Below are positions 7,994 to 15,818 of a DNA stretch of 42,031 nt, piece by piece. The notes beneath the pieces were generated by a model. It searched no databases. It was given only the letters and a program-made list of their open reading frames with translations, and was not told the origin of the DNA. Each line of letters opens with the position of its first letter. Within the stretch, counting starts at the first letter, position 1. The DNA lies in the NCBI GenBank assembly GCA_011391275.1, contig JAABQW010000274.1, forward strand, positions 1-42,031. The letters run 5' to 3'. Made by a program: the position numbers and the translations under genes. Source of the DNA: Betaproteobacteria bacterium (GTDB taxonomy: Bacteria > Pseudomonadota > Gammaproteobacteria > Burkholderiales > Usitatibacteraceae).

Positions 7994-8166
7994 ACCTTTC
8001 GGACACGGATGAACACGGATGGACACGGATAAAAGCGGATAAAGCCAGGCGGAAAGGGATCGACTCTGAATTGGCGTGCTCCGCGATATCGCCGAGATTC
8101 CATACCAGGGAATCATCCGTGTTCATCCGTGTCCATCCGTGCTCATCCGTGTTCCAAAGGTTTGCG
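7991..8166. repeat. GAACACGGAT-unit inverted-repeat element, locus 1
   Basis: Left arm aaacctttcggacacggatgaacacggatggacacggat (7992-8030); right arm atccgtgttcatccgtgtccatccgtgctcatccgtgttccaaaggttt (8115-8163); unique core between. Confidence 0.85.
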
Positions 8167-8182
8167 CCAGCATCACTCTCCT

Positions 8183-10258
8183 ATGCCGAACAGACTCGCC
8201 CGGGAAACCAGCCCTTACCTCCAGCAGCACGCGGACAACCCCGTCGACTGGTATCCCTGGGGGGAAGAAGCCCTTGGCGCCGCAAGGGCATCCGGCAAGC
8301 CGATCCTGCTCTCGGTGGGCTACTCCGCCTGCCACTGGTGCCACGTGATGGCCCACGAGTCCTTCGAGGACCCGGAAGTGGCGAAGGTGATGAACGACCT
8401 CTTCGTGAACGTGAAGGTGGACCGCGAGGAGCGCCCCGACATCGACCAGATCTACCAGGCCGCCCAGCAGATGCTCACGCAGCGAGCCGGCGGCTGGCCG
8501 CTCACGATGTTCCTCACCGCCGACCAGGTGCCTTTCTTCGGGGGGACGTACTTCCCGAAGGAGGCGCGCTACGGCCTGCCGGGCTTCGTGGACCTCATGC
8601 GCCGGGTGCGCGCCTTCCACGACGGGCAGCGCGCCGACATCGAGGCGCAGAACGGCGAGCTGGTCGCTGCCCTCGCGCGCACGCAGCCGCGCGGTGCGGC
8701 CCATGCGTCGGATTTCTCCGACCGGCCGCTCCTCGAGGCCATCGCCTTCCACGAAAGTGCCTTCGACCGCGAGCGCGGGGGGTTCGGCCAGGCGCCCAAG
8801 TTCCCGCACCCCGACGCGATCGAGGCCTGCCTTCGCCACTTCGCGAGGACGGGCGACGAGCGCGCGCTGGCGATGGCGACCACGACGCTCGCGAAGATGG
8901 CCGGGGGCGGCGTCTTCGACCAGCTGGGCGGCGGGTTCGCGCGCTACAGCACGGACAACGACTGGGCCATCCCGCACTTCGAGAAGATGCTCTACGACAA
9001 CGGCCAGCTCATCCGCCTCTACGCGGACGCCTGGGCGCTGACCGGCGAGCCGCTCTTCGCGCGCACGGTCGAGGAGACCGCCGCCTGGGCCATGCGCGAG
9101 ATGCAGTCGCCCGGAGGCGGCTACCACTCCTCGCTCGACGCCGACTCGGAAGGCGAGGAGGGAAGGTTCTACGTCTGGACGCGCGAGGAAGTCCAGGCCG
9201 CCCTCACCCCGGAAGAAGGGGCCGTCGCAATCCCGCACTACGGGCTCGACCGCAGTCCCAACTTCATGGGCCGCGCCTGGAACCCCGTCGTGGCCACGCC
9301 GCTCGCCGACATCGCCGCGCGGCTCGAGATCGGCGGGGACGAAGCCGCCGCGCGCCTTGAATCGGCCCGCGCGAAGCTCCTCGCCGCGCGCGACAGGCAC
9401 GTGCGCCCGGGCCGGGACGACAAGATCCTCACCTCGTGGAACGCGCTGATGATCGGCGGCATGGCCCACGCCGCGCGCGTCCTCGGCCGCGACGACTGGC
9501 TCGCCTCCGCGCGGCGCGCCCTCGACTTCGTCCGCGACACGATGTGGGACGGGGAGCGGCTGCTCGCGACGCACAAGGACGGAAAAACGCACCTCAACGC
9601 CTATCTCGACGACTACGCCTTCCTGCTCGCGGCCCTCCTGGAGGTGATGCAGGCGGATTTCCGGCCCACGGACCTCGCGTGGGCCGAGGCGCTTGGCGAC
9701 ACGCTGCTCGAGTCCTTCCACGACGAGGCCGGCGGCGGGTTCTTCTTCACCTCCCACGACCACGAGCGCCTCATCCACCGCCCCAAGCCCGGCCACGACA
9801 ACGCCACCCCGTCGGGCAACGGCGTGGCGGCGTGGGCCCTCAACCGCCTCGCCTTCCTCTCGGGCGAGATGCGCTTCCGGGACGCCGCCGAGGGCACGCT
9901 GTCCCTCTTCTGGCCCGCCATCGAGCGGTCCCCTGGCGGCTTCGGGAGCCTGCTCGCGGCGCTGGAGGAAATGCTTTCGCCTCCGACCACGGTCATCGTG
10001 AACGGCCCGCCGGCCGCCTTCGGCCCCTGGCGAGAGGCCCTGCGGCGCGATTACCTCCCCTCCACGCTGGTCGTTTTCGTGGGGGACACGGCCGGCATAC
10101 CCCCCCCGTTGGCCAAGCCCGCCGGACCGACGGTCAACGCATGGGTGTGCCAAGGCGTTAAGTGTTTGGCCCCCCTCGCGGAACCGGGCCAATTGCGCGA
10201 AACCGTGAAACCCCCGAAAATCGGTGGTTCCGCGCCTACCCGAAACCGTTCCGCCTAA
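8183..10258 (+). CDS. Thioredoxin-domain protein of the DUF255/YyaL (SSP411-like) family
   Basis: [31 protein letters not shown]...[22 protein letters not shown] hallmark. Confidence 0.94.
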
Positions 10259-12154: not shown

Positions 12155-13153
12155 CTGGACACCTTCATCCAGCAGGTGGTGAACGGCCTCACCCTGGGCT
12201 GCGTGTACGCCGTCGTGGCACTGGGCTACACGATGGTCTACGGCATCGTGCAGCTCATCAACTTCGCGCACGGCGAGGTGGTGATGATCGGCTGCATGGT
12301 CGCCTTCTCGGTGATCGTGGCGCTCGCCCCCACGGGGCTGCCCCCGTTCGTGATCGTGGGCGCCGGCATCGCCGCGGCCGTGCCCGCCTGCATGGCGGTG
12401 GGCTTCGCCGTCGAGCGCATCGCCTACCGGCCGCTGCGCAACGCCCCGCGCCTCGCCCCGCTCATCACGGCCATCGGCGTGTCGATCGTGCTCCAGCACC
12501 TGGCCCTCCTCGTCTGGAGCCGCAACATCATCGCCTTCCCGCAGATCATCGAGCTGAAGCTCTTCCACTTCGGCTCCTCGGAGACGAGTGCGGCCATCTC
12601 CAACATCCAGATCGCCATCATCGCCACGTCGGTGGCGATGATGGCCGGGCTCCTGCTGCTGGTCTACCGCACCCGCCTGGGCATCGCCATGCGCGCCACG
12701 TCGCAGAACCCGCAGGTGGCGGGCCTCATGGGCATCGACGTGAACCGCGTGATCTCGGCCACCTTCGTGATCGGCGCCTCCCTCGGCGCGGTGGCCGGCG
12801 CGATGGTCGGCACCTACTACGGCATCGCGCACTACCAGATGGGGTTCCTGCTCGGGCTCAAGGCGTTCAGCGCCGCGGTGCTGGGCGGGATCGGCAACCT
12901 CGCGGGCGCCGTGCTGGGCGGCATCCTCATGGGCCTGATCGAGGCGCTGGGCGCGGGCTACGTGGGCGACTTCACGAACGTGTGCCTGCTGGACCGCTTC
13001 CTGCCGGGCTTCTCCGCGGTGTGCGAGGCGAGCCCCGAGTCGAGCCTCTTCGGCAGCAACTACAAGGACGTGTACGCGTTCATCGTCCTCATCCTCGTGC
13101 TCGTCTTCCGGCCCTCCGGGCTGCTGGGCGAGCGTGTCGGCGACCGGGCCTAG
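12155..13153 (+). CDS. livH: Branched-chain amino acid ABC transporter permease LivH
   Basis: DTFIQQVVNGLTLGCVYAVVALGYTMVYGIVQLINFAHGE; gaggag RBS 7 nt before an apparent CTG start at 12155 (alternative GTG at 12176). Confidence 0.9.
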   Translation: MDTFIQQVVNGLTLGCVYAVVALGYTMVYGIVQLINFAHGEVVMIGCMVAFSVIVALAPTGLPPFVIVGAGIAAAVPACMAVGFAVERIAYRPLRNAPRLAPLITAIGVSIVLQHLALLVWSRNIIAFPQIIELKLFHFGSSETSAAISNIQIAIIATSVAMMAGLLLLVYRTRLGIAMRATSQNPQVAGLMGIDVNRVISATFVIGASLGAVAGAMVGTYYGIAHYQMGFLLGLKAFSAAVLGGIGNLAGAVLGGILMGLIEALGAGYVGDFTNVCLLDRFLPGFSAVCEASPESSLFGSNYKDVYAFIVLILVLVFRPSGLLGERVGDRA

Positions 13154-13165
13154 GTGGGCGTTATG

Positions 13166-13660
13166 GAGTTACGCCACCCAAGGACGGGGACACGGATGAA
13201 CACGGATGAACACGGATGTTGGATTGAAGGGCGATATCGACGTCTCACGAAGTGTCATCGGGGCTGCCTTTCGCGTTGCCAATGCACTGGGAGTCGGATT
13301 TCTTGAGAAGGTCTATGAGAACGCTCTCGCGGTCGAGCTGCGCCTCTGCGGACATTCCGTGGAGCAGCAACGCCCGATCGAAGTCCGCTACCGCAACCAG
13401 ATCGTCGGCATTTACCAGGCGGATCTGGTTGTGGATGGCCGCCTGGTCATCGAGCTCAAGGCGGTCGATGCCCTGTCGCCGAATCACAAGTCTCAATGCC
13501 TCAATTACCTGCGGGCCTGCGGTCTTCACACCGGCCTGCTCATCAACTTCGGTCGCCCGCGGATCGACATCCTGCGCATCCTGTCCTGAACCCGGAATTG
13601 CCCTATCCGTGTTAATCCGTGTCCATCCGTGTTCATCCGTGTTCCAAAGGTTTACGTAAC
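13166..13660. mobile_element. GAACACGGAT-unit inverted-repeat element, locus 2, carrying a GxxExxY gene
   Basis: Left arm gagttacgccacccaaggacggggacacggatgaacacggatgaacacggat; right arm atccgtgttaatccgtgtccatccgtgttcatccgtgttccaaaggtttacgtaac (13605-13660); lies between livH and livM. Confidence 0.65.
13206..13589 (+). CDS. GxxExxY family protein
   Basis: VIGAAFRVANALGVGFLEKVYENALAVELR (G-F-L-E-K-V-Y) ... YQADLVVDGRLVIELKAV; start codon lies in the repeat (MNTD). Confidence 0.9.
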   Translation: MNTDVGLKGDIDVSRSVIGAAFRVANALGVGFLEKVYENALAVELRLCGHSVEQQRPIEVRYRNQIVGIYQADLVVDGRLVIELKAVDALSPNHKSQCLNYLRACGLHTGLLINFGRPRIDILRILS

Positions 13661-13661
13661 C

Positions 13662-14756
13662 ATGGGCACCCCCTCCACCCTCCGCGACGACCCCCGACTC
13701 AAATGGGCGGGCCTCGCCCTCATCGCGATCGCCCTCATCGCGCTGCCCTTCGTGCTCGCCATGGCGGGCACGGCGTGGGTGAGGATCACGAACCTCGCCA
13801 TCCTCTTCGTCCTGCTCTCGCTCGGGCTGAACATCGTGGTCGGCTTCGCGGGGCTGCTGGACCTGGGCTACATCGCGTTCTACGCCGTCGGCGCCTACGT
13901 CTACGCCCTCCTCGCCTCGCCCCACTTCGGCCTTCACCTGCCGTGGTGGGCGATCCTGCCCATCGGCGCCGCGGTCGCGTGCCTGTTCGGCGTGCTGCTC
14001 GGCACGCCCACGCTCAAGCTCAGGGGCGACTACCTCGCCATCGTGACGCTGGGCTTCGGCGAGATCATCCGCATCTTCCTCAACAACCTCTCCGAGCCCT
14101 TCAACCTCACCAACGGCCCGAAGGGGATCGCGACCATCGATCCCATCCGCTTCCTGGGGCTGGACTTCTCCTCGGCCACGCGCATCGGCGAGTTCGCGCT
14201 CTCCGGCACCATCAAGTACTACTTCTTCCTGCTCGCCGTGCTGGTCGTGGTGATCGTGGTGAACCTGCGCCTGCAGGATTCCCGCATCGGCCGCGCCTGG
14301 GAGGCGATCCGCGAGGACGAGATGGCCGCGCGCTCCATGGGCATCAACACCACGCGCATGAAGCTCCTCGCCTTCGCCATGGGCGCCTCCTTCGGCGGCA
14401 TCGCCGGCGGCATGTTCTCGGCGATCCAGGGCTTCATCAGCCCGGAGAGCTTCGTCCTCAACGAGAGCGTGATGGTGCTCGCAATGGTAGTGCTGGGCGG
14501 GATGGGGAACATCTGGGGCGTGGTGCTGGGCGCGGTCCTGCTCTCCTTCGTCCCGGAGATCCTGCGCTACACGGTCGAGCCCGTGCAGCGCATGCTCTTC
14601 GGCCGCTCGCTCATCGACCCGGAGGTGATCCGCATGCTGCTCTTCGGGCTGGCGATGGTGGTGATGATGCTCTTCCGCCCCGCGGGGATCCTGCCCTCGG
14701 CGGTGAGGAAGCGCGAGCTCGCGACGGGGCGCGAAGGCGATGGCGACGACGCCTGA
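13662..14756 (+). CDS. livM: Branched-chain amino acid ABC transporter permease LivM
   Basis: LGLNIVVGFAGLLDLGYIAFYAVGAY...GDYLAIVTLGFGEIIRI. Confidence 0.94.
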   Translation: MGTPSTLRDDPRLKWAGLALIAIALIALPFVLAMAGTAWVRITNLAILFVLLSLGLNIVVGFAGLLDLGYIAFYAVGAYVYALLASPHFGLHLPWWAILPIGAAVACLFGVLLGTPTLKLRGDYLAIVTLGFGEIIRIFLNNLSEPFNLTNGPKGIATIDPIRFLGLDFSSATRIGEFALSGTIKYYFFLLAVLVVVIVVNLRLQDSRIGRAWEAIREDEMAARSMGINTTRMKLLAFAMGASFGGIAGGMFSAIQGFISPESFVLNESVMVLAMVVLGGMGNIWGVVLGAVLLSFVPEILRYTVEPVQRMLFGRSLIDPEVIRMLLFGLAMVVMMLFRPAGILPSAVRKRELATGREGDGDDA

Positions 14757-15552: not shown

Positions 15553-15818
15553 CACTACCCAAGGACGGGGACACGGATGAACACGGATGAACACGGATAT
15601 TGGAGGGTTGGACCAAGGTGCCCCCTGCCTGTGACATCGGCATCGTGTCCTGATGCGACTGCGTTCGCGTGCCATCCATCAAATATCCGTGTTCATCCGT
15701 GTTCATCCGTGTCCCCGTCCTTGGGTCGCGTAACTCACCGTCCATTGGCTATGCCCTCCAATATCCGTGTTCATCCGTGTTCATCCGTGTCCCTGTCTTT
15801 GAGTAGCGTAACTCTCCG
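15553..15818. repeat. GAACACGGAT-unit repeat cluster, locus 3 (one forward and two reverse copies)
   Basis: acccaaggacggggacacggatgaacacggatgaacacggatattgg (15557-15603) and reverse copies at about 15683-15735 and 15758-15813; fills the livG-livF gap. Confidence 0.88.

Follow-up and report, generated by a model that had tools for sequence, protein, structure and literature searches.

A GxxExxY gene between inverted repeat arrays in a liv operon as a candidate mobility factor for dispersed hairpin repeats

The livH and livM genes of a betaproteobacterial liv operon are separated, in the window analysed here (the whole stretch of 42,031 nucleotides), by a short GxxExxY gene set between inverted repeats; the question that this locus raises is whether gene and repeats form one mobile unit and, if so, what moves it. 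The first-pass annotation had placed the gene between inverted arms built from a 10-bp unit, an arrangement borne out by the coordinates of the open reading frame and of both arms (Table 1). The unit reads GRACACGGAT and is present in three copies on the left and in four inverted copies on the right. The start codon lies within the left arm, as had also been pointed out; this holds at the window locus but is not a general trait, since the start codon of many other GxxExxY genes follows the arm and precedes the conserved domain. Matches to the 10-mer with at most one mismatch number 23 in the window, against 1.8 expected and a maximum of 5 in 100 shuffles, and the 20-bp double unit has 85 matches in the genome against 0 for a reversed-pattern control; together with the control placements and shuffled arms described below, these comparisons rule out a chance origin of the repeats.

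Table 1. Coordinates of the livH/livM block, its host genes and the related repeats in the window
Feature	Position	Strand	Remarks
livH	12176..13153	+	upstream host gene
Whole element	about 13166-13661		496-bp block between livH and livM
Left outer inverted stretch	13166..13187	+	GAGTTACGCCACCCAAGGACGG; imperfect partner of 13645-13661
Left arm	13188..13217	+	three 10-bp units, GGACACGGAT GAACACGGAT GAACACGGAT
GxxExxY gene	13206..13589	+	127 aa; TIGR04256/PF13366; PD-(D/E)XK + QxxxY motif; ATG at 13206
Right arm	13605..13644	-	four 10-bp inverted units, ATCCGTGTTA ATCCGTGTCC ATCCGTGTTC ATCCGTGTTC
Right outer inverted stretch	13645..13661	-	CAAAGGTTTACGTAACC; adjoins livM ATG
livM	13662..14756	+	downstream host gene, ATG at 13662
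Gene-less short hairpin, same family as livH/livM element	8001..8154	.	just 5' of 709-aa ORF 8129-10258; fold z = -6.9
Gene-less short hairpin between livG and livF	15569..15714	.	fold z = -9.5
Extra right arm (half element) before livF	15763..15792	-	

The comparison of the window's genome (G000) with its congeners includes four congeneric species about equally distant in the liv operon, at roughly 88-91% DNA identity. In the livH/livM gap, the window's element is present as one block, gene and both arms, in G000 and G200; another GxxExxY gene with CGCCGAT arms occupies the gap in G202 and G203, and also in sister-genus G152 and G204; and the gap is empty, with the two genes abutting, in G022 and G201. 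The empty site on one side and the full block on the other fit the arrival of gene and repeats as one unit, which is what had been proposed from the window alone. The livG/livF gap (window 15553-15818; L236-L242) is a recurrent insertion site, empty in G200, G022 and G201, where stop and start overlap as ATGA, and filled by three unit families, one in G000, one in G202, G203 and G204, and one in G152. For the sites that were followed into the congeners, G200 is empty at nine, including livG/livF, and has the same family at three, including livH/livM, whereas in G202 eleven are filled by another family and one is vacant. Conversion of the arms in situ was rejected, as the same-site cores are unrelated between species, with the exception of L060 in G202/G203 and, weakly, L062 in G000/G200; these mostly unrelated cores point to separate insertions or whole replacement. 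At livG/livF, the empty ATGA compared with the filled RTGA...ATGA in G000 gives a hint of a 3-4 bp duplication, the other sites being unclear, and neither a target-site duplication nor an excision product was established at the sites compared across congeners. Taken as a real and mobile unit, the block stands on ground that leaves very little room for doubt. Two further loci have notable flanks: in L042, the right arm and the start of trpC are duplicated, possibly as the scar of repeated insertion, and a second CGCCGAT-type GxxExxY copy in G152 (L044) has flanks with remnants resembling the end of livH and the start of livM, candidates for either flank capture or a decayed liv duplicate.

The gene-bearing block has numerous gene-less relatives. 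The source genome (3.27 Mb, 81% complete) contains one GxxExxY gene as opposed to about 40 gene-less copies, and single gene-less copies fold into one long hairpin, with z from -7 to -10. The outer motif GAGTKAYGC..CCAAAG of the livH/livM element also borders gene-less copies, and variant inner units are mirrored across both arms within one copy (AAAGGCGGAT/ATCCGCCTTT and AGAGGCGGAT/ATCCGCCTCT, for example). The cores of the gene-less copies are mostly unrelated, although some pairs in G000 (L052/L053, L063/L064, L051/L070) are 77-91% alike across most of the core, the highest values being 83-91%, as expected from copying. That the gene-less elements arose from the gene by deletion was considered and set aside, since their cores, read by eye, have no clear similarity to the gene ends.

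The GxxExxY protein of the window matches TIGR04256 with E 1.3e-39 and 135.1 bits (cut-off 35) over positions 2-115 of 116, and Pfam PF13366, PDDEXK_3, with 132 bits against a cut-off of 22. In an alignment of 47 sequences, E34, D73, E83, K85, Q97 and Y101 are invariant, which comprises the D and E-x-K catalytic residues and the QxxxY motif. The AlphaFold model (pLDDT 93.8) has Cas4 (4IC1, SSO0001) as its top Foldseek match, with E 2.7e-4, probability 1.00 and TM(query) 0.56, followed by MGME1, LHK-Exo, lambda exonuclease and AddAB; a sequence search against solved structures gave nothing significant for this protein. The earlier guess of a PD-(D/E)XK relationship is thus corroborated by the Pfam family, by the invariant D73, E83 and K85 and by a predicted fold nearest to Cas4. 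Judged by its model, the protein is a predicted nuclease of a minimal Cas4/RecB type, with intact active-site residues. It shares with the Cas4/RecB/lambda-exonuclease group (4IC1 SSO0001, MGME1, LHK-Exo) the predicted fold, the D, the E-x-K and the QxxxY, and differs from it in its size of about 125 aa, in lacking the iron-sulphur cysteine set, no cysteine being invariant in alignments A1 or A3, and in having, at the loci read, neither cas nor recombination genes linked to it. An assignment to Cas4 proper was rejected on the missing conserved cysteines for an Fe-S cluster and on the neighbourhood, made up of operon genes (liv and trp, for example). Since the only Pfam and NCBIfam matches are PDDEXK_3 and GxxExxY, with no HUH/Y1 transposase domain and no known transposase, the protein is not a RAYT and the block is not a known insertion sequence. 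The ratio dN/dS is 0.054 for the G000/G200 orthologues and 0.12 for G202/G203; the protein is under purifying selection.

A match to TIGR04256 is found in 31 of the 200 genomes of the order, in a patchy distribution; genomes of the order carry one copy or a few, and divergent copies within one genome reach 15. A search of a species-level genome collection, with loci chosen by similarity to GLLES-type proteins, yielded 80 loci from many phyla and groups, including Methanosarcinales archaea, Cyanobacteria, Bacteroidota, Planctomycetota, Chloroflexota and Acidobacteriota. Using a motif-free score for inverted flanks, whose threshold let through 0.6% of 2506 placements made at random within these loci, inverted arms were detected at 59 of 77 GxxExxY loci from bacteria and archaea and at 41 of 50 loci in the order set. 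The genes of the order have inverted tandem-unit arms of other sequence (CGCAGAGG, CACGAATGAA, CGCCAAGA and CACAGAGGA, for example), and a common grammar is apparent, often AACC followed by two to four copies of C-R-C-N-R-A-K with a period of mostly 8-11 bp. Among the 123 left arms, found without reference to any motif, 97 contain at least two CRCVRAK units, and shuffled arms average 0.4. The arm sequence varies by genome yet obeys one grammar of CRCVRAK repeats. The enrichment of such flanks at GxxExxY genes elsewhere, anticipated by the first-pass annotation, is real for inverted tandem-unit arms, but ATCCGTGTTC itself, as an exact word, is a local variant, present in 3 of 200 genomes of the order, all three with GxxExxY; a repeat peculiar to the source genome is accordingly true of the exact word alone, the grammar being general.

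These distributions bear on a domesticated host function, in which the protein would control or trim extruded palindromes, as SbcCD does, or regulate operons via the repeats, mobility being incidental or extinct. The purifying selection, the low copy number in the order and the operon positions would agree with such a role, which we nevertheless consider very improbable in view of the patchy presence, the many divergent copies in one genome and the swapping of families at the same site.

The abundance of the repeats is associated with the gene. When the 200 genomes of the order were scored by a generic three-unit pattern, GxxExxY was present in 22 of the 32 repeat-rich genomes versus 9 of the 168 others (p 7e-15, odds ratio 39) and in 12 of the 13 richest, and the association holds in genomes without TIGR02436 (p 3e-7). 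Nevertheless, the 10 repeat-rich genomes without detected GxxExxY count against a nuclease-driven model; the candidate explanations are loss of the gene-bearing copy or another mobility factor. Arrays of CRCVRAK are abundant, with GxxExxY undetected, in G022, G014, G039, G062, G084, G132 and G173. Repeats without the gene, together with the single gene among some 40 gene-less copies and the repeated occupation of certain junctions (livH/livM and trpD/trpC, for example), could also be explained if host processes (replication template switching, arm recombination) spread the palindromic repeats and GxxExxY, a passenger or homing gene, had settled in them, cutting arm sites elsewhere to copy itself. 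So strong a tie between repeat load and GxxExxY is, however, unexpected for protein-independent repeats, and we hold this explanation to be unlikely. As to the junctions, GxxExxY elements with differing arms occur at an apparent trpD/trpC junction in several families of the order (L002, L006, L008, L019, L036, L039, L040, L042).

The type of unit tracks the protein clade and not the host. Proteins with GLLES go with units ending in ..AG and those with GFLE with units ending in ..AT; the last unit letter is T in 23, A in 2 and G in 1 of the F-type proteins, and G in 78 and T in 1 of the L-type. In a tree of 110 proteins, all 82 ..AG cases fall on one side of one branch (support 97/91), and the tree requires one letter change for G and three in all, against a mean of 25 for G in shuffles, 0 of 500 being as low. 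Forty loci from other phyla, fetched later, obey the F/T-L/G rule with few exceptions (L204 and L232, for example), and in six genomes that harbour both unit types (G023, G035, G036, G145, G152, G169) each gene has its own unit. A Mantel test of protein distance against unit distance gives r 0.51 for the whole set and r 0.19 for the G clade alone, with p 0.0005 in both cases. Part of this match could be plain co-inheritance, because the arms are physically linked to the gene, and the main contrast amounts to few events on the tree, which counts against the nuclease-driven model; nevertheless, a 7-bp word still legible across proteins about 40% identical would be unexpected unless constrained, and a unit matched to the protein clade across phyla would be unexpected too if the repeats spread independently of the protein. 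Two subclades have their own arm types: GFLESVYQNAL proteins from different phyla (L011, L220) both have unusual ACAGGAT-type arms, and a small group of proteins with VYQEC or FHEC (L016, L218, L228) has units ending in A (CACGGAA, CACGAAA).

The reading that we favour, and consider on balance probable, is that of a compact mobile element with a nuclease that reads the arms and moves its own block as well as gene-less hairpins. Arm recognition by GxxExxY, and nuclease action on the arms driving the copying, are inferred; that the protein acts on the repeat has indirect support in the matching of unit and clade and in the load correlation. The 496-bp block would be the gene-bearing member of a family of mobile palindromic elements; the protein would recognise the unit of its own family, probably with several subunits on the tandem array, and also on arms that have been extruded into a hairpin or cruciform of DNA; nicking or end trimming by the protein may set off the replicative copying of the block, and may do the same in trans for gene-less hairpins bearing the same arms. 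The targets would be mostly short stop-start gaps in operons, where read-through may provide expression.

The free-standing TIGR02436 genes of the order (L273-L302), which encode a four-helix-bundle family, were taken as a negative control for inverted arms. Inverted tandem-unit arms were, however, present at 22 of the 30 genes, with other words that are often GTGA-based (GTGAC, GTGAGG, GGGGCTA, GTGAATGTC and others), and the genome loads of the two families display a partial double dissociation. An unrelated protein within the same architecture implies that the architecture does not need a nuclease; it also favours, to that extent, the spread of the repeats by host processes. These arms may reflect an architecture to which small selfish genes commonly resort, or else arm movement by host enzymes with a small arm-binding protein to guide them. 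It is mainly because of this result that our confidence in a nuclease-driven mechanism goes only somewhat beyond an even balance. The S23 protein encoded in 23S rRNA intervening sequences is of the same family as TIGR02436.

The genomic context introduces a further possibility, namely that the arms of the operon co-transcript fold into a long RNase III substrate, and that the protein binds or processes RNA or aids a spread based on reverse transcription. The neighbours are strongly co-oriented with the element (54:6 upstream, 48:6 downstream; both sides on the same strand in 33 of 36), and the gene therefore probably lives on read-through transcription; in addition, the intervening sequences of 23S rRNA are selfish single-gene hairpins with an S23 protein ORF, cut by RNase III (PMC4990558). 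Against this, arm mismatches compatible with G-U pairing on the transcribed strand are not in excess (125 versus 135, p 0.58), and this lack of wobble asymmetry gives no support for selection on an RNA hairpin of the transcribed strand; no Rfam family exceeded its gathering score, the weak matches being mostly to eukaryotic miRNA models, which react to any long hairpin; and the predicted fold is of the DNA-processing Cas4/RecB/lambda-exonuclease type. An RNA-level mechanism is thus rather improbable. The block shares with the 23S intervening sequences one short ORF within inverted arms and a selfish-element character (PMC4990558), and differs in its unrelated protein (PDDEXK_3), its units and its operon site; an assignment to these sequences was rejected, as the block lies between livH and livM, not in rRNA, and its ORF is PDDEXK_3 and not S23p/four-helix-bundle.

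The closest parallel to the proposed arm-reading nuclease is the REPIN/RAYT system, in which dispersed gene-less inverted-repeat hairpins coexist with a cognate nuclease gene, present in low copy and bordered by that repeat, enzyme and repeat co-evolving (PMC3116915, PMC8266576). As in that system (also TnpA-REP, REPtron), dispersed inverted-repeat hairpins are linked to a cognate gene; the RAYTs, however, are HUH/Y1 proteins related to IS200/IS605, with GTAG-tagged REPs of 20-40 bp, as opposed to a PD-(D/E)XK protein here, and the present elements differ further in having arms of two to four tandem 7-bp units, a gene between the arms and up to 15 copies. The best reading of these similarities is that the elements may work like REPIN/RAYT, but with an unrelated enzyme. 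Terminal inverted repeats, gene-bearing and short gene-less forms and scattered copies are also found in insertion sequences with their MITEs, from which the gene-less forms described here differ by their mostly unrelated cores, their near-constant length and the lack of gene ends recognisable as products of deletion. In the open-access literature, an association between GxxExxY and hairpins was not found described, and the unit sequences led to unrelated papers alone, apparently through primers; the findings point to a very widespread and, as it seems, undescribed kind of mobile DNA. A wider view, to which we give slightly less than an even chance, is that the GxxExxY elements belong, as one branch, to a large and so far undescribed class of mobile DNA in prokaryotes, in which a single small gene reads the arms, these being inverted arrays of the word that it recognises, and hundreds of gene-less hairpins are moved in trans; other branches would use unrelated proteins (TIGR02436), and the branches together would explain a large part of the anonymous hairpin repeats dispersed in bacterial and archaeal genomes from the environment. 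For an uncharacterised family found in many bacterial phyla and archaea, these data provide a function hypothesis with a testable DNA substrate, and they name a candidate mobility factor for dispersed hairpin repeats of hitherto unexplained origin; if true, REPIN-like repeat populations would have a second enzyme class, PD-(D/E)XK, next to HUH. The code that links protein and word (GLLES/..AG, GFLE/..AT) opens specificity swaps to testing, and a putative nuclease of 125 aa that reads short tandem words may itself be useful.

As to the replicons involved, a plasmid-borne or phage-borne element was rejected, with 8 of 72,556 plasmids and 5 loci in 2.9 million viral contigs. In large viral contigs, four loci (L152-L155) carry divergent GxxExxY genes, with 43-48% identity.
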